Source: Methanoculleus methanifontis
GTDB taxonomy: Archaea; Halobacteriota; Methanomicrobia; Methanomicrobiales; Methanoculleaceae
Assembly: GCF_030464365.1 (NCBI RefSeq)
Contig: NZ_VCYI01000005.1
Span: 1 to 64,000 of the forward strand
Length of the DNA: 64,000 nucleotides
Reading direction: 5' to 3'
A program made the position numbers and the translations under genes. Numbering within the stretch: position 1 is the first letter of the stretch; each line of letters opens with the position of its first letter. This document shows positions 18,794 to 26,890 of the stretch, piece after piece. Under the pieces are notes generated by a model that was given only the letters and a program-made list of their open reading frames with translations, did not search any database and was not told where the DNA came from.

Positions 18794-19786
18794 TCAGACA
18801 ATGTGCTTGCCGAGGAGGCGGATGGAGTTGGTCATGTCGGGGCCGAGCGGCGAACCGAAGATGATCTGGGTAACTCCAGCCTTTGTGAGGTCTTCGCACT
18901 TCTGCTTGACCATGTCGGGGGTTCCGGCGATGGTGAAGGCGTCGATCTCCGCGTCGGTGACAAGTCCGCCGACGGTCTTGAAGTCGAAGCGGCCGAGCGC
19001 TTCCTTGATCTTCTCAACGTTGTCCAGGTTGAGTCCGTGGCGCTGGAGAAGCGCGGGCGGGGAGCCGGCGGCGATGAATGCGGCAACAATCTTCGCGGCG
19101 TTCCGGGCCTTCTTCTCGTCCCTGTCGATGGACATGGCGGTGTAGGCGCCGACGTCGAACTTCTTCTTGCCGGCCTTTTCCATGGCTCCCTTGATGATCG
19201 GGATGGCGACCTCGAAGTCCTTGGGGTTCGAGGCGTTGATCAGGGCACCGTCACCGACCGTTCCGGCGAGCTCGAGCACCTTGGGACCCTGGGCGCCGAT
19301 GTAGACCGGGATGGCCTTCTTGCCGGGCAGGGTGACACCGGTCAGCTTGGCGCCGTCGTAGTCGAAGAACTCCAGGTTACCGGACTTCTTGACCTCTTCA
19401 CCGGCGAGGAGTTTCCGGATCTGCTCGACACCCTCTCTCAGGTGACCGACGGGCTTGACGGGGTCGATCGCGAGCTTGGGAAGCGTCGAGAGGTCGCCGG
19501 GCCCGATACCGAGGACGGCACGTCCGTCGGAGATCTCGTTTAAGGTAGCCATAAAGGATGCAATGGCTGCCGGGGTGTCGGTGAATGTGTTCATGATGCC
19601 CGGGCCCATCTTGATCGAGTCAGTGTTTGCTGCGATCATGGCGAGGGTCGGGTATGCATGACGGTTGTTGTAGTGGTTCGTGATCCAAGCGTAGTCGATA
19701 TCCTTCGACTCTGCAAGCTTGGTGTACTTCACCACCTGCTTGACGTTGATTGCTCCGGGCACAAATTCAATTCCATATGTAGTCAA
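18794..19786 (-). CDS. mer: F420-dependent methylenetetrahydromethanopterin reductase
   Basis: Mer reduces methylene-H4MPT to methyl-H4MPT with F420H2, the step after Mtd. The 330-aa bacterial-luciferase-like TIM barrel has YGIEFVPGAINVKQVVKYTK at the N-terminus, then ITNHYNNRHAYPTLAMIAA, GPGIMNTFTDTPAAIAS and IGPGDLSTL, all typical of Mer. The start is a TTG at 19786 with a perfect GAGGTG 7 nt upstream. An in-frame ATG at 19801 lies before that ribosome site and at the predicted transcription start, so it is not used. The gene stands alone with its own promoter. Confidence 0.97.
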   Translation of the reverse strand: MTTYGIEFVPGAINVKQVVKYTKLAESKDIDYAWITNHYNNRHAYPTLAMIAANTDSIKMGPGIMNTFTDTPAAIASFMATLNEISDGRAVLGIGPGDLSTLPKLAIDPVKPVGHLREGVEQIRKLLAGEEVKKSGNLEFFDYDGAKLTGVTLPGKKAIPVYIGAQGPKVLELAGTVGDGALINASNPKDFEVAIPIIKGAMEKAGKKKFDVGAYTAMSIDRDEKKARNAAKIVAAFIAAGSPPALLQRHGLNLDNVEKIKEALGRFDFKTVGGLVTDAEIDAFTIAGTPDMVKQKCEDLTKAGVTQIIFGSPLGPDMTNSIRLLGKHIV

Positions 19787-19821
19787 GGCTATACACCTCA
19801 TTGAGTAGTTACGTGCCGGGA

Positions 19822-20080: not shown

Positions 20081-20140
20081 ATGCTTCTTTCGCGGCAAAG
20101 GCCACTTTGGATATGCGAAGGTGTCTGGTGGGGAGTATAA
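20081..20140 (+). CDS. possible 19-aa leader peptide, Trp-rich
   Basis: An ATG at the predicted transcription start opens a 19-codon frame, MLLSRQRPLWICEGVWWGV, that ends 4 nt before the ATG of the FtsZ-like gene. Three of 19 residues are Trp. The frame could be a leaderless regulatory peptide, or chance. Its position exactly at the predicted start site is the main support. Confidence 0.3.
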   Translation: MLLSRQRPLWICEGVWWGV

Positions 20141-20144
20141 TCTT

Positions 20145-22082
20145 ATGCGAGTGCTGACGATAGGGTTGGGCGGCGCCGGGTCGCGTGTTGTGGATCAACT
20201 CTATGACCATGACCGGCGTAGTAAGGTCTACTGCATGAGTGCGGTAGCGATTGATATCGACCCGAACTCCCTGCTGCAACTCCGCCATCTCCCCAATCCC
20301 GCAAGGATCTTCTTCCCACGGGTCGATATATCGGGCCGCGCTCATGTCACGGACGTGATCGATATCGAGGAGGTGATGACCCGCCTCCAGAGTATGGATA
20401 CGATGGAGATCGACGCCATCCTCTTCTGTTGCGGGCTCGGGGGCAGCGTCATCGATATTGCGCCGCCTATCATCGCCGAGATCCGGAAGTCCTACGTGGA
20501 ACCGATCTTCGCCCTTGCCATACTGCCGTGCCTGGAGGAAGGGAAGCGGGTCTCGGCCAAGGCCGCCGACGACCTCGAAGTGCTCCAGGAACTCGTTGAT
20601 GCTGTCATCCTCTTCGACAACGAGACCTGGTCGCAGAAGATCAAGGCAGCCGCCGCTGCAGCCGAGGCCGAGAACACCGGCGTCATGGGCCAGCTGCGCC
20701 AGATCCCCATAGGGTCGGACCCGAGAACGCACTACAGCATGCTCAACGAGAGGATTGCGCGCCAGATCGGCCTTCTTCTTCGCGCCGGAGAATTCAACGA
20801 GTCCGGGCTCGACGTCGCCGAGGTCGTTCTGGATGCCGGAGAGGTCTTGAACACCCTGAAGGGGAACGGGTTCGTCGCGGTCGGCTACGCCACGGAGCGG
20901 CTGCCGACCGGATGGCTGAACATCTTCCACCGCCGACAGTCGCTCAAAGACTTCATCCAGGGTTCGCAGGAGAAGGCTGCCCGGATCATCTCCCTCGCAA
21001 AAAAAGCGGTCTATGAAGATGTATCGGTTCCCTGCGACCTCACGAGCGCCGATAAGGCGCTGGTGCTGATCGCCGGCCCTTCAGCCGAACTCTCGATGAA
21101 GGGGTTCCAGACCGTCCGAAAATGGATCGACCGGAGCATCGCCGGGCTCGAGATGCGGTCGGGGGACTATCCGGTGAAGAACACATCGTTTGTGGGGATC
21201 ATAATCGTGCTCTCGGGGATATCCAACATCCCCCGGGTCGAGGAGATCCAGGACATCCGGACGGAATACCAGCTTGAATGCGAGGAAGAACGATTGAGGG
21301 CGGAAGAAGAAGTGCGGCTGTGTGAAGAGGAGGCGGCCGGCATCGTCCCCGAGGTGCCGGATGACGAGGGCGCCCGGGACTTTGCCTCACCTCTTGAGTC
21401 GGCATATCTGGAGGAGATCGGATACATGGTAGAACCAACCACACCGGAGAAGGATGAGATGATCGCGCTCCCGGGCAACGGCGGAAGCGACCAGAAGCGC
21501 AGGGATGATACCATCGACATGCTCCCGAAAGCCGAGAAGAAGCAGGACGAAGATCCCGTCGTCCTTCCCCCGAAGCAGGGCGGGAGGGAGATCGATCTCA
21601 CCGGGTCGGCCTCGATCACCTCGTCGGTGCCCGCCCCGAAGAACGCTACCTTCGGCCTCAAAGGGATCAACATCGAGAAGACGGGCCCAAAAGACGATGC
21701 GGTATCATACTCCACAGCCTTAAAGCCCGTGCAGCGGCCGAAAGAGGGGTCGCTCTCCGCAGATGCGGGCACCCCTGATCGCGGGATACAGCGGCCGAAA
21801 GAAGGGGTGTTCACGGGCGATCACGTCACGCTCGGCCACGGGATACAGCGGCCGAAGGACAACCTCTTCGATGAAGCCGGCCTGCACATGCGCGAAGGGA
21901 TGCCCTTACCGAAGGACGGTTCGCTGGGCCAGAAGGGGTTCGCCCGATCCGGCCCCCGCCCGAAGGAGGTCGGTCCCTCGCGCGGAAGGCTCGAGGTGAT
22001 CGATACGGCCGCCCGGCAGAAGAGCAGTGAGGAGAAAAAAACGGACGACGACACGGACGGCGGGATCACCTGGATCCAGTAG
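20145..22082 (+). CDS. FtsZ/tubulin-like GTPase-domain protein with repeat tail
   Basis: The 645-aa protein starts MRVLTIGLGGAGSRVVDQL, a nucleotide-binding opening like FtsZ and tubulin. It continues with CCGLGGSVIDIAPPI (about 94-108) in place of the canonical GGGTGSG loop, and VDAVILFDNETW (about 147-158) like the FtsZ ILFDN region. The first 340 residues are the GTPase-like part. The tail is charged and probably disordered, with repeats VQRPKEG, IQRPKEG and IQRPKD (about 527-580). The role is unknown; a cytoskeletal or scaffold function is inferred. The GTG at 20121 is an alternative start. Its 3' end overlaps nrpR by 17 nt, tail to tail. Confidence 0.75.
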   Translation: MRVLTIGLGGAGSRVVDQLYDHDRRSKVYCMSAVAIDIDPNSLLQLRHLPNPARIFFPRVDISGRAHVTDVIDIEEVMTRLQSMDTMEIDAILFCCGLGGSVIDIAPPIIAEIRKSYVEPIFALAILPCLEEGKRVSAKAADDLEVLQELVDAVILFDNETWSQKIKAAAAAAEAENTGVMGQLRQIPIGSDPRTHYSMLNERIARQIGLLLRAGEFNESGLDVAEVVLDAGEVLNTLKGNGFVAVGYATERLPTGWLNIFHRRQSLKDFIQGSQEKAARIISLAKKAVYEDVSVPCDLTSADKALVLIAGPSAELSMKGFQTVRKWIDRSIAGLEMRSGDYPVKNTSFVGIIIVLSGISNIPRVEEIQDIRTEYQLECEEERLRAEEEVRLCEEEAAGIVPEVPDDEGARDFASPLESAYLEEIGYMVEPTTPEKDEMIALPGNGGSDQKRRDDTIDMLPKAEKKQDEDPVVLPPKQGGREIDLTGSASITSSVPAPKNATFGLKGINIEKTGPKDDAVSYSTALKPVQRPKEGSLSADAGTPDRGIQRPKEGVFTGDHVTLGHGIQRPKDNLFDEAGLHMREGMPLPKDGSLGQKGFARSGPRPKEVGPSRGRLEVIDTAARQKSSEEKKTDDDTDGGITWIQ

Positions 22083-23034
22083 CGTCCGCTATTTTTTCGA
22101 ACGGTATGGTTCCTGCACCAACCTCGGTTTTGATAGCGTAACCTTTCTCAACGGCGTTCCCTACCATGTTCATGCCGCTGAGCGCAATGACGGAGAGGCG
22201 GTAGGGGTGTTTCGGAAGGTTGAACTCGCCGATGCCCCCTCCGGCAGGGAACGTGAAGCCGCACTCCTCCATCAGGCCGACGGTCACCTCCACCCGATAC
22301 CGTGCGGCCGCCGGCACCGCACGGACGTTTGCAAGCGCGACGCCGGCCCGGGTCGTCACCAGCCGGTTGATCGAGGTGAGTCCGGCGGATATGAAGAGGT
22401 GGAGCGGGTCGACCGACGTCCCGCGGTAGCCGATGAGATCGAGGAACCCGGCGGAGCCGTCCTCATCGACGGCAATCCTGCCGGCGTATTCGAGCCTCGT
22501 CGGGATACCCAACTTCTGGAGGATGCCGTCCAGGGTGATGCTGCAGGCCGTCATGATCCCGATGTGACCGTCGGGTATGCGGGGATCGGAATCGACGATC
22601 CGGTAGGCGTTGAGGAACCCGTAGCCCGTTGCTGCCACCTCGTCGAAGGCTGCCGTGACGCCCGGGAGGTCTTCTTCCCGCACGAAGGAGAGGTTGTAGG
22701 CGACGCTGCCCGTGCTGGTCGACGGGTCGAAGGTGCTCCGGAAGGCGAGCTGCTCGAGCCTCGATATGATGAAGCCGAGCCTTTGATCGACGAGCGCGCT
22801 TTCGCTCTCGGCGATCCCGGCCTCGGTGAGGAGACGTCCCCGGTTCCCGACCTTCTCCGTAAATCCCATCTCGTCGAGGTACTGGAGATAGTACTGGACG
22901 GCGCGGTCGCTCAGGACGAATCCGCGTTCACCCATCTTCTCGCTCAACCGTTTTGCGCCCAGGGGTTCGTGCGATTCCGCGAGAATCCGGAGGATCTCAA
23001 GATATTTCCGTTCTGAACGTATCGAGGGGGTCAT
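22066..23034 (-). CDS. nrpR: NrpR-type transcriptional regulator
   Basis: NrpR represses nitrogen-assimilation genes in methanogens and is released by 2-oxoglutarate. The 322-aa product has an N-terminal winged helix-turn-helix (ILRILAESHEPLGAKRLSEK, about 14-33) and one NrpR/DUF128 domain, with motifs DGHIGIMTACSITLDGIL and FPAGGGIGEFNLPKHP. One sensor domain is present, as in the shorter Methanosarcina-type proteins; Methanococcus has two. It overlaps the upstream dUTPase-like gene by 4 nt (ATGA), so the two are probably co-transcribed. No nitrogen genes lie nearby. Confidence 0.9.
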   Translation of the reverse strand: MTPSIRSERKYLEILRILAESHEPLGAKRLSEKMGERGFVLSDRAVQYYLQYLDEMGFTEKVGNRGRLLTEAGIAESESALVDQRLGFIISRLEQLAFRSTFDPSTSTGSVAYNLSFVREEDLPGVTAAFDEVAATGYGFLNAYRIVDSDPRIPDGHIGIMTACSITLDGILQKLGIPTRLEYAGRIAVDEDGSAGFLDLIGYRGTSVDPLHLFISAGLTSINRLVTTRAGVALANVRAVPAAARYRVEVTVGLMEECGFTFPAGGGIGEFNLPKHPYRLSVIALSGMNMVGNAVEKGYAIKTEVGAGTIPFEKIADATGSR

Positions 23035-23456
23035 CGGGTACGCACCGCACCAACACTATCCTGATACCGGCCCTGGTACAGCCGGTCACCGTTCAACACT
23101 TCCTGCAGGATCATCTGCACGATTCGGTCGCCTTCAAGAAGGCGGATCTCCTCTGCGCCGGAGTTCGTCAGGCAGAGCGTCAACTGGCCGCGGAACCCGG
23201 GATCGACGAACCCCCCGCCGAGGAGGACGCCGCGACGCGCAAGCGAGGAGCGGCACCGGAGGGTCGCCGCGACGTCGTGCGGGAGTTCTACCCACTCGAT
23301 CGAGGGGACGAGGGTGCATGCGCCGCGCGGGAGCACGGTCTCCTCGGCCGCGCGGAGGTCGTAGGATGCGGGCTGCTGGGATGCATCGTGGTACGGCTCG
23401 ATGACGAGATCGCCGTTTTCGCGCCGGCAAGCGATTTCGCTGGATGAGAGGATCAT
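23031..23456 (-). CDS. dUTPase / dCTP deaminase family protein
   Basis: The 141-aa trimer-type nucleotide hydrolase has family motifs RCRSSLARRGVLLGGGFVDP (about 73-92), FRGQLTLCLTN and GDRIVQMILQEV, plus the C-terminal YQGRYQDSVGAVRTR arm. The family removes dUTP or deaminates dCTP. The position usually held by the catalytic Glu of deaminases (in a TLELTN-like strand) is Cys here (TLCLTN). This favours a dUTPase-like role, but that is an inference from memory of the motif. Start MILSSSEI is chosen because a TATA-like TTTTTATG lies about 20 nt upstream. Confidence 0.8.
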   Translation of the reverse strand: MILSSSEIACRRENGDLVIEPYHDASQQPASYDLRAAEETVLPRGACTLVPSIEWVELPHDVAATLRCRSSLARRGVLLGGGFVDPGFRGQLTLCLTNSGAEEIRLLEGDRIVQMILQEVLNGDRLYQGRYQDSVGAVRTR

Positions 23457-23511
23457 TGTATAGGGTACTGACATAAAAACGCTTAATAACTTACGATAGA
23501 AACCGAAGAGG

Positions 23512-23583
23512 GGACCCATGGGGTAGTGGACATCCTTTTGGGCTTCGAACCCAAGGACGCGGGTTCAATTCCCGCTGGGTCCG
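23512..23583 (+). tRNA. tRNA-Arg (UCG)
   Basis: A full cloverleaf is visible: acceptor GGACCCA/TGGGTCC, anticodon stem TTGGG/CCCAA with loop CTTCGAA (anticodon TCG), and T arm GCGGG/CCCGC with loop TTCAATT. There is no encoded CCA; the discriminator is G. A T6 run follows from 23586. No intron is seen. Confidence 0.95.
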
Positions 23584-23850: not shown

Positions 23851-26800
23851 TCACTGGATACGGATATACGCGTCTCCGGTCGCCCCGGCACGTACATCCA
23901 TGGTAATCTTGTCCGAGGAGTCCGCGGTATCCGGTGCGGAACCACGAACCCAGATGATGTACTCGCCGGGCGGGAGGCCCCGCACGTCCAGCGTGGACGT
24001 TCCGCCCGTCGTCGTATTCGTGGCGGAGAGCGTGTCGAATTTCACCCAGGTGTACTCGTTGTCGTTGGAATAGAAGACATCCTCCGTCACGTCATATAGA
24101 CCGGTGTAGTTGAGATCCCAGGCGACCGGGAAGAACTCATCGATCGGCCCCGTGCCTGTGAACACGAGGTCTTTGATCTCCAGCGCCGCAAAGTCCATCC
24201 CGGTGTTGTTCAGGGGTACGGCCGTGATGAAGGTGTCGGGGAGTTCAAGCGAATCGGTGCCGTTGTTGAACGAGATCGTCGAACCGGGGCCGAAGATATT
24301 GATGTTGCCTTCCGTCTTCACCGCGAGCCTGAAGGTCGTCTCCCAGGTCTGGCCAAGGCGCACGGTGCCGATGTTGAAGGGGAGGTGCGGGTTTGCCGCG
24401 GTCCAATTCGGCGTGTCGTCGCGGGTATAGCGGGGTATGATCTCATAATGATCCACCGTTTCGTTGTCGATCCAGCTCTCGATGGTGGTCGATACATCCT
24501 CTTCGTGGACGTAGTCGAACACACTGGTCCCGGTGGTTAAATTCCCGTTCACCTCGACGTTCTCAAAGACGACGTCCAGTTCGGTATCGACGCCGGCCTC
24601 GGTCTTGAGTTCGCCGGCAATACGCTCGTATATGTCGGTGAGATCGTCAGCGTCAGGGGCATGCTCGTAGAACCCGTCGGTGGAATTAGCGAGTGTTTCC
24701 ATCGCAGTACGGACATTATCTGGATTATAAGCAAACGTGATCGTATACAATGAGATATTATTTGCAATTGCATAATTTGACATGTTCTGGTTTGTTACCT
24801 CTCCTATGCCACTAGGGCAATAGTCAGTTTTTTCATTATTGTAGTAATAGCCATCATAACCGACTTTCGGCACAGTAATCCACCCATACTCAAGCGTACC
24901 CCCGAGACCGTCGTAGTATTCATAGTAATCGTACGTAATCGTATTACCACTCCAGGTCCAATCCTGTAAGCCTATGCCGTGCCCCAAGGGAGTTCCATGG
25001 TAATTCCAGTCGCCATCGGACATCAAGATAACGGCTTTCACCGCTTCCGGTCGTCCATTATCACGAAGGTGTGATATTGCCGTATAGAATGCCTCTCTCA
25101 TGTTCGTAGCACCTGTTGGTTCAAGGTCATCGATCTTTGACTCAAGGGCAGCCTTGTCGTTTGTGAGAGGGGCATCCAGACGGGCATCCGACGCGAATGA
25201 AACGAGCCCCACCCGGTCACGAGTAGAGTTCATCTGAGCGACAAAGTTGTTCGCTGCATCCTGTGCTGCCTCCATCCTTTCGTTTGAGGTACCGCTGTTC
25301 CTGGCGATATCATACTTCATACTCCCCGATCGGTCGATCACCAGCACCACGTCGATCGGATCCGGTTGGAGCGCCCAGCCGTCCCCTTTCAACCGGATTG
25401 TGACGTCGACCGTATCGTTCACCGCCACCGTCTCGGGGGAGACCTCCGTCTCCACCGAGAGGTAGGGGTAGTTCTTCCAGGTGAGTTCGATATCCCGGCT
25501 GACGTTGCCCCACGTCGCCCGGACGATCGCCGTCCCGGTCGCGGTCTCGCTCCAGCCCGCGACATCCGGATCGGTCGTGAACGCACCAGGGTGGAACTCC
25601 ACAGTCGCATACCCATCGATGTCGGTCACGCCCGATGCCGCCGCCAGTTCAGGACCCCGGGTCTGCACGTACGGCGTGCAGTCCGTCGATACGATCTCGA
25701 ACGTCACCGTCTCGCCCTTGACCGGGTTCCCCCTGATATCCATCACCTTGGCCCGGAGTTGCGAAACGGAACCGTCGTTGACGTCCCGGCTCGGCATCGA
25801 CTGCGGGCTTGCGGAGAGGAGCATGTTCACCGGTTCGGTGCTGGTGAACTCGACGTCCTGCGATGCGCTCGCGCTTGCGTTCGCGGCTGCCGTCGCGGTG
25901 ATGATGGCTCTGCCGACGGAGTCCTCGGGCCCGTAGGTGATCATCGCCCGTCCCAGTGAACTGGTGTTGAGGAGACGACTCTCCTGCTCATCCGGTTGGT
26001 TCAATCGAATCAGTGTGGCGTTCACCCAGATGCCGTGCCCGGAAACAGGGTTTCCGTACTCGTCCAGCAACGTGTAGGTACACGAGACCCTCGTCTTCCC
26101 GTCGGCCGGAACCGAACCGCTCTCCGGAACAACAACCTGCGTGATACTGACCGGGTATCCTCCTATCCCGGCGATGGAGATCATATCGCTTCCGATCGGT
26201 GCCGGAGGGCGAATCCAGACGAGGTTCTCCCCGGCCACCGTATCGACCCGGAGCGTCGCGGTAGCGTTCCCGACCGCATCCACCGATACTGAAAGCACGT
26301 CCACGAGGGACTCCCCATCCACAAACCCTGCCGGCGGGCTCACCGTGAAGAGCACCCTCTCGATCACGTTCCGGCCGTCCACCACATTCCCATACCTGTC
26401 CTCCATCCGGACGATGATCTCCGTCGTCTCCCCAACGGTCACCTCAGGGTCGTACCAGGTATTGACGAGCTCATACGGCGCCGCGTGGTCGATCTGCTGC
26501 TCACCACTCCCGGTCAGGGGCGCGTCCACCCCATCTGAGACCGTCGCCGCGATCGTTGCTGTCCCGCTCCGTGTCCCGGGCCTGAAGGTTGCCGCCGCCG
26601 TTCCGTCACTGGCCGTGATCACGTGCGCGGGCGAGATGCTCCCGTAGGCGCTGTCGACCGCAAGATTCACGACAACACCGGAAACTCCATCGCTGCCGTT
26701 TGTGACCAGCACCGTGATGGTCGCGGTCTCCCCGCTCCCCGCCGTCAGCCATTCGCTGCTCGTAACGACCTCAATCGTATCGGGCACCAGGGCAGCGGCC

Positions 26801-26859
26801 GGAACGGCAAGAAGGAGCAGTCCGGTGATGATTATGCAGGTGCGTATCCACGTACTCAT
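23851..26859 (-). CDS. secreted VWA and Ig-like domain surface protein (paralogue 1)
   Basis: The 1002-aa protein has a signal peptide (TCIIITGLLLLAVPAAAL). Several Ig-like invasin-type domains follow, with the hallmark turns EDRYGNVVDG, LDEYGNPVSG and MDIRGNPVKG (up to about residue 480). A von Willebrand A domain has an intact MIDAS (DRSGSM near 506, TNM near 573, SDGDW near 600). A C-terminal beta region follows, with many N-glycosylation sequons. No membrane anchor or sortase-like tail is visible. The family usually mediates adhesion or cell-surface contacts. The ATG at 26859 fits the TATA at 26891-26898; the upstream ATG at 26877 lies before the predicted transcript start. GC is lower in the middle of the VWA domain. 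Confidence 0.8.
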   Translation of the reverse strand: MSTWIRTCIIITGLLLLAVPAAALVPDTIEVVTSSEWLTAGSGETATITVLVTNGSDGVSGVVVNLAVDSAYGSISPAHVITASDGTAAATFRPGTRSGTATIAATVSDGVDAPLTGSGEQQIDHAAPYELVNTWYDPEVTVGETTEIIVRMEDRYGNVVDGRNVIERVLFTVSPPAGFVDGESLVDVLSVSVDAVGNATATLRVDTVAGENLVWIRPPAPIGSDMISIAGIGGYPVSITQVVVPESGSVPADGKTRVSCTYTLLDEYGNPVSGHGIWVNATLIRLNQPDEQESRLLNTSSLGRAMITYGPEDSVGRAIITATAAANASASASQDVEFTSTEPVNMLLSASPQSMPSRDVNDGSVSQLRAKVMDIRGNPVKGETVTFEIVSTDCTPYVQTRGPELAAASGVTDIDGYATVEFHPGAFTTDPDVAGWSETATGTAIVRATWGNVSRDIELTWKNYPYLSVETEVSPETVAVNDTVDVTIRLKGDGWALQPDPIDVVLVIDRSGSMKYDIARNSGTSNERMEAAQDAANNFVAQMNSTRDRVGLVSFASDARLDAPLTNDKAALESKIDDLEPTGATNMREAFYTAISHLRDNGRPEAVKAVILMSDGDWNYHGTPLGHGIGLQDWTWSGNTITYDYYEYYDGLGGTLEYGWITVPKVGYDGYYYNNEKTDYCPSGIGEVTNQNMSNYAIANNISLYTITFAYNPDNVRTAMETLANSTDGFYEHAPDADDLTDIYERIAGELKTEAGVDTELDVVFENVEVNGNLTTGTSVFDYVHEEDVSTTIESWIDNETVDHYEIIPRYTRDDTPNWTAANPHLPFNIGTVRLGQTWETTFRLAVKTEGNINIFGPGSTISFNNGTDSLELPDTFITAVPLNNTGMDFAALEIKDLVFTGTGPIDEFFPVAWDLNYTGLYDVTEDVFYSNDNEYTWVKFDTLSATNTTTGGTSTLDVRGLPPGEYIIWVRGSAPDTADSSDKITMDVRAGATGDAYIRIQ

Positions 26860-26890
26860 AGATCTCAAAGGGGTCATTTAACCAAACCGA

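Follow-up and report, generated by a model that had tools for sequence, protein, structure and literature searches.

In tubulins, the phosphates of GTP are held by the T3 and T4 loops and the guanine by T6 and H7, and the T7 loop reaches over to the GTP of the neighboring subunit. ARC3 of chloroplasts, an FtsZ-like protein of an unrelated lineage that carries a MORN domain, has a degenerate GTPase domain and regulates an active paralog. The proteins FtsZl1 and FtsZl2 possess a GGGTG(S/T)G loop, and FtsZl1 is without a recognizable T6-H7 region (Makarova and Koonin, 2010; PMC2875224). The C-terminal peptide of FtsZ binds SepF in Methanobrevibacter smithii; across archaea, this peptide has a consensus centered on GID (PMC8178401). 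According to the main text of a survey of CetZs, genomes of Methanomicrobiales encode two CetZs, the second of which is deep-branching and belongs to a “non-Halobacteria-like” group, and few similarities were seen among the surroundings of cetZ in three Methanomicrobiales regions (Brown and Duggin, 2023; PMC9856176). In that main text, we found no remark on lost T3 or T4 loops, a linker, a terminal peptide or a mer neighborhood.

The window analyzed here, a 64,000-nucleotide stretch of the Methanoculleus methanifontis genome, contains a gene for a divergent CetZ paralog, referred to as CetZ-N. The gene and its folded core are placed as follows.

20145..22082, + strand: CetZ-N gene, 645 aa (ORF call, Pfam, and orthologs in 98/98 genomes of the order with a completeness of at least 90%)
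20145..21284, + strand: tubulin/CetZ-fold core, residues 1-380, with PF00091 at 3-164 and PF21011 (CetZ_C) at 195-371 (Pfam, model, Foldseek, VIA)

The open reading frame runs from an ATG at 20145 to a stop at 22080-22082; an in-frame GTG lies upstream at 20121, and M1 is nevertheless conserved in all aligned orthologs. Pfam recognizes the CetZ_C domain (E = 1.6e-46; 158.5 bits against a cut-off of 21.6) and the Tubulin domain (E = 1.9e-11; 45.1 bits against 33), and the NCBIfam ftsZ equivalog score of 40.7 bits, with a cut-off of 295.2, places the protein outside FtsZ. The best sequence matches in the PDB are Haloferax CetZ1 (4b46, E = 5e-56) and then CetZ2 (4b45), and Methanosaeta CetZ (3zid) is also matched when the search uses a profile of 21 orthologs. 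The AlphaFold2 model of the core, built from a shallow alignment, is of only moderate confidence (pLDDT 59, pTM 0.53). With this model, Foldseek ranks CetZ1, CetZ2 and Methanosaeta CetZ at the top of 350,542 chains (4b46: E = 1.5e-23, probability 1.00; 4b45: E = 4.0e-20), the corresponding VIA Z values being 22.8, 21.1 and 22.3, and the Foldseek and VIA matches listed all belong to the tubulin superfamily. Since CetZs rank first in both comparisons despite the moderate model, the fold can be considered settled, and a plain Rossmann enzyme is ruled out by the same matches. The earlier note had described a non-canonical FtsZ/tubulin-like protein and suggested structure prediction and comparison; Pfam, the PDB sequence search, Foldseek and VIA all bear the description out, the comparison recovering the tubulin superfamily fold with CetZ structures closest. 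A full-length AlphaFold2 model made with 21 close homologs (mean pLDDT 45) was left out of the fold searches. Viral contigs yielded no relative.

Four tubulin-family genes are detectable by Pfam in this genome, two FtsZs and one canonical CetZ besides CetZ-N; SepF is encoded there as well. CetZ-N is 30% identical over the core to the canonical CetZ of its own genome. Because two CetZs per genome have been reported for the order and only four tubulin-family genes occur here, CetZ-N is very probably the second Methanomicrobiales CetZ of Brown and Duggin. A cytoskeletal or membrane-scaffold role, as suggested in the earlier note, may still apply. The suggestion of a new family is too strong: CetZ-N is a fast-evolving CetZ paralog with a Pfam CetZ_C domain, neither a new fold nor an unknown family, and the CetZ pair already stands in the published tree (PMC9856176). 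Its assignment to methanogens at large is too broad and should be confined to the order Methanomicrobiales, although Archaeoglobi may have a cousin of it. Literature searches of accessible main texts returned no description of lost T loops in this CetZ, and we likewise found no account of its order-wide presence and position, of T3/T4 loss with T7 kept, or of an FtsZ-like terminal peptide.

The distinguishing features of CetZ-N are concentrated around the nucleotide pocket.

20163..20180, + strand: T1 loop GLGGAG, residues 7-12, kept (alignment, residue scoring)
20322..20342, + strand: lost T3 site, residues 60-66, where the canonical KGHGVGTDN..G is deleted or replaced and the chain is 8 residues shorter (alignment)
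20433..20456, + strand: degenerate T4, GLGGSVID, residues 97-104, at the position of canonical GLGGGTGSGG (alignment)
20613..20621, + strand: T6 F-D-N, residues 157-159, with the guanine-side Asn, kept (alignment, residue scoring)
20631..20729, + strand: lineage-specific H6-H7 insertion, about residues 163-195 (alignment)
20826..20855, + strand: T7 loop, kept as V-L-D-x-x-E-V-L-N-T at residues 228-237, in which D230 and E233 are of catalytic type (alignment, residue scoring)

The glycine-rich start and ILFDN element noted previously are both present, as T1 GLGGAG and residues 155-159, and GLGGSV does stand at residues 97-102 in place of GGGTGS, the canonical CetZ of the same genome reading AGLGGGTGSGG there. 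Sequences were divided by GGGTGS into 49 canonical proteins and 100 without the motif (including one not belonging to the order), a sorting that makes the T4 difference true by construction, although synteny and the tree also part the two groups. Positions invariant among 26 non-redundant canonical CetZs were then scored in 65 non-redundant CetZ-N orthologs. None of the ten invariant T3 residues is kept, about eight residues being lost altogether, and T4 retains GLGG and nothing of GTGSGG; the signature GGGTG(S/T)G is absent from the synteny-supported orthologs. T2 keeps one of five, with Asn replaced by Asp. T1 keeps six of eight, including the loop G, G, A and G, and GxGGAG is found in nearly all orthologs. 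All three T6 positions are preserved (guanine-side Asn in 100%), as are five of seven in T7/H8 (D230 in 100%, E233 in 98%), so that the catalytic acidic residues of tubulin superfamily GTPases are in place, and 18 of 29 in the C-terminal domain. The residues that replace T3 and T4 are hydrophobic and acidic, and the H6-H7 loop has a median of 37 residues between markers, compared with 13 in canonical CetZ. Because pocket residues invariant in canonical CetZ (e.g., Q10, N37, KGHGxG and GGGTGSGG) are wanting, CetZ-N is best filed as a CetZ-derived paralog rather than as a canonical CetZ.

Given the roles of these loops in tubulins, the loss of T3 and T4 with retention of T7 leaves CetZ-N with its nucleotide face dismantled and the opposite face intact. 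Because T1 and the contacts to guanine persist, the protein may still bind nucleotide to some extent. It is conceivable, if unlikely, that CetZ-N is an unusual but working CetZ GTPase, whose T1 and T6, together with a remodeled T4/H6-H7 region, would hold GTP differently and which would form filaments of its own beside those of canonical CetZ. Such an enzyme would fit the near-universal T1, the invariant guanine-side Asn, the T7 Asp/Glu pair (98-100%), the retained GLGG start of T4 and the strong purifying selection, but both phosphate-holding loops of the family are gone or replaced and Asp stands in place of the T2 Asn. The T7 residues could also be kept for folding alone.

A comparable pocket occurs outside the order. 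Archaeoglobi-like genomes (L190, L196-L201) encode a short second CetZ of 302-340 aa that is without T3 and T4 and keeps T7; unlike CetZ-N, it has no tail, and T1 is also changed in several copies. The Pfam Tubulin model misses this protein in several genomes, and in one (G299) its gene adjoins that of canonical CetZ. In a quick maximum-likelihood tree, the short proteins and CetZ-N are sisters with a support of 99, and both lie inside CetZ. When the short copies are removed, CetZ-N stays beside the canonical CetZs of Methanomicrobiales and of Archaeoglobi-like genomes, with which it groups; when the CetZ-N clade is removed, the short copies wander. Pocket loss may thus have had a single origin, in line with the support of 99 in the full tree, or two, as the short copies shift once the long branches are separated. 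Altered T4 loops (GLGGATGGG, GLGGAAGAG and GLAGGTGGG) are also seen in CetZ-like proteins of haloarchaeal-type genomes (L202, L205, L209; G153, G166), so the pocket change may have arisen more than once among CetZs. The published deep position of the branch may be a long-branch effect, and a deep branch of the CetZ tree can be a fast-evolving pseudo-enzyme instead of an ancient lineage.

CetZ_C proteins are present in 118 of 120 Methanomicrobiales genomes. CetZ-N, recognized by its far closer match to the protein encoded in the window, occurs in every one of the 98 genomes with a completeness of 90% or more; a canonical CetZ accompanies it in almost all of these, one genome (G080) showing none. 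Six genomes (G006, G012, G018, G036, G060 and G086; f6/g8, e.g., L032) carry two canonical copies plus CetZ-N. Weak Pfam Tubulin matches also occur in open frames of 1058-1090 aa (G001:C1:190870, G013:C2:172509 and G015:C1:996200), which are possibly FtsZ-like 1 proteins. Selection on the CetZ-N core, as judged by dN/dS (Nei-Gojobori), is relaxed relative to canonical CetZ (about 0.10 versus 0.04-0.06), yet the core is clearly constrained and under purifying selection; values for the tail are 0.28-0.43. That the CetZ-N gene is decaying and will eventually be lost is scarcely credible: it evolves faster than canonical CetZ, very divergent copies and tail loss are seen in one family (f5), and the copy in G060 is split into two pieces, but the gene is in 98/98 good genomes, its frame is open almost everywhere and dN/dS of the core is near 0.1. 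For the order as a whole, decay is refuted by these selection and presence data.

Three flanking genes accompany CetZ-N.

18794..19801, - strand: mer (5,10-methylene-H4MPT reductase), divergent neighbor, kept across most of the order
22066..23034, - strand: NrpR-domain regulator, convergent neighbor, kept in most of the order
23031..23519, - strand: dCTP deaminase/dUTPase-like gene (dcd), conserved neighbor

The order and orientation of mer, CetZ-N, the NrpR-domain gene and dcd are maintained across most of Methanomicrobiales, with mer divergent upstream and the other two downstream at most loci in the six families sampled, including those of tailless and of the most divergent copies (35-47% identity). 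This conserved position identifies the CetZ-N copies as positional orthologs independently of sequence. There is no sign of horizontal transfer or phage origin in this conserved chromosomal neighborhood. The divergent intergenic region between mer and CetZ-N spans roughly 340 bp. Farther downstream (23851-26877, - strand) is a gene for a surface-type protein of 1008 aa that carries Big_1/invasin-like and vWA domains and whose relatives near the same place elsewhere are only 31-68% identical. CetZ-N has no operon link to canonical cetZ, sepF or ftsZ, its conserved neighbors being mer, nrpR-like and dcd, which counts against the filament-partner reading given below. A ligand switch, in which the guanine-side contacts would hold a different ring, such as a methanogenesis pterin or deazaflavin, and CetZ-N would report metabolic state to the cytoskeleton, might be read from the retention of guanine-side residues alongside lost phosphate loops, from the adjoining mer in most of the order and from links of cetZ to F420 genes in Halobacteria described in the main text of PMC9856176. 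However, the neighborhood within one order is weak evidence and mer is an isolated divergent gene rather than a clear operon partner, and we consider this switch very improbable.

C-terminal to the core is a long tail, which comprises the following elements.

21300..22055, + strand: disordered charged linker, residues 386-637 (pLDDT below 40 from residue 401; ortholog lengths)
21729..21968, + strand: repeat tract, (I/V)QRPK(E/D) at residues 529, 548 and 567, LPKD at 588 and RPKE at 605 (alignment, shuffles)
22056..22079, + strand: conserved C-terminal peptide DGGITWIQ, residues 638-645 (C-termini comparison)

In the full-length AlphaFold2 model, residues 399-645 are below pLDDT 50. The tail is charged, as had been remarked of the last 300 residues, and its length is about 260; among orthologs the linker ranges from 0 to more than 740 aa. 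The (I/V)QRPK(E/D) repeats reported in the earlier note are real: three strict copies follow a 19-aa period and two looser ones accompany them, far above the level of 20,000 tail shuffles, only 0.015% of which contained at least one strict copy and none five loose ones. Methanoculleus-like genomes mostly have three to six loose copies, and most other families have fewer. The repeats are confined to close relatives, so they are genus-level linker filler and not what the tail conserves. A role as the general functional core of the tail is rejected, as their copy number varies within Methanoculleus-like genomes and they are not kept order-wide.

The conserved part is instead the end of the tail, D-D-G-I-x-W-I, which most orthologs carry on a linker. 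Near the stop, 65 of 90 complete C-termini match a pattern of acidic/glycine, I/L/F, any residue, W and I/L/M, with 0.07 expected in shuffled tails; most read DGITWI, and one family has GIDWIT. The candidate SepF-binding peptide of the window protein is DDDTDGGITWIQ. FtsZ1 of the order ends in [ED]IDF[LM][KR] and FtsZ2 mostly in LIDFL, one family having LLDWVM or LVDWVM, and canonical CetZs end in [DE][DE]xI[ED]PLF. The CetZ-N end is similar and not identical to those of FtsZ, having W at the position of F in most FtsZs and frequently T or S at that of the FtsZ D, and its likeness to the SepF-binding FtsZ C-terminus (I-D-F-L) is suggestive at the level of sequence. Copies of about 400 aa in family f5 are without both linker and terminal peptide, so tethering is not a universal role of CetZ-N. 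The tail also bears on the rather unlikely idea that CetZ-N is a scaffold or adaptor that derives from CetZ but has nothing to do with filament ends; its core would bind a partner by the altered face and its tail would recruit proteins, with no co-assembly with CetZ. The length and variability of the tail, in which short motifs are conserved within Methanoculleus, the neighbors mer, nrpR-like and dcd in place of cytoskeletal genes and the remodeled nucleotide face would suit such a protein, but the T7 face, which in the superfamily makes the longitudinal contact and completes the GTPase site, is among the best-kept regions, also in the Archaeoglobi copies.

Overall, CetZ-N is probably a partner of the normal CetZ filament, or an adaptor for it, and not itself a GTP-driven filament. 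Our preferred reading, put forward tentatively, is that of a pseudo-GTPase CetZ that would engage GTP-loaded canonical CetZ through its T7 face, as a cap, activator or co-polymer, and would in most genomes tether it via the tail. Such a protein would not bind GTP and could not use it for head-to-tail assembly of its own; its intact T7 face would dock on canonical CetZ filaments at their GTP-bearing end, where it may complete the GTPase site of the canonical subunit. The remodeled nucleotide face would then block further addition, making CetZ-N an end cap or a GTPase-activating partner. Through the tail and the terminal peptide, the filament would be tethered to a membrane adaptor, for which SepF is the most plausible candidate, and hence to the division or envelope machinery. 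An extended version, which we regard as unlikely, is a two-component cytoskeleton in which an order-wide, GTP-independent subunit caps or activates active CetZ via T7 and an FtsZ-type tail ties the CetZ and FtsZ systems to one SepF anchor. The tubulin superfamily is defined by its GTP-bound interface, and T3/T4 loss with T7 kept order-wide amounts to a natural separation-of-function variant. If CetZ-N does partner canonical CetZ, archaea evolved unequal subunits, one active and one a pseudo-GTPase, like eukaryotic alpha/beta-tubulin and plastid ARC3. The protein would also offer a concrete handle on how CetZ filaments attach to the membrane.

Similar comparisons place CetZ-N among the known systems. 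The whole core aligns with Haloferax CetZ1 and CetZ2 (4b46, 4b45), with T1, T6, T7 and the CetZ_C domain common to both; in contrast to these proteins, CetZ-N is without the T3/T4 phosphate loops, has Asp for the T2 Asn and carries the H6-H7 insertion, a 260-aa linker and a W-type terminal peptide. Canonical CetZ of the order, including that of the same genome (L003), shares the acidic D-D-G-I start of the terminal peptide but has GLGGGTGSGG, no linker, an end in [DE]-P-L-F and slower evolution. With FtsZ, CetZ-N shares the arrangement of core, disordered linker and C-terminal peptide, the last resembling I-D-F-L, and it differs in its CetZ-type C-terminal domain and in a score far below the FtsZ equivalog cut-off. 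Relative to FtsZl1 and FtsZl2, the pattern is reversed, T4 being lost and T6-T7 kept. ARC3 may be a functional analogy, as an FtsZ-like protein with a degenerate GTPase domain that regulates an active paralog, though ARC3 has a MORN domain and belongs to an unrelated lineage.
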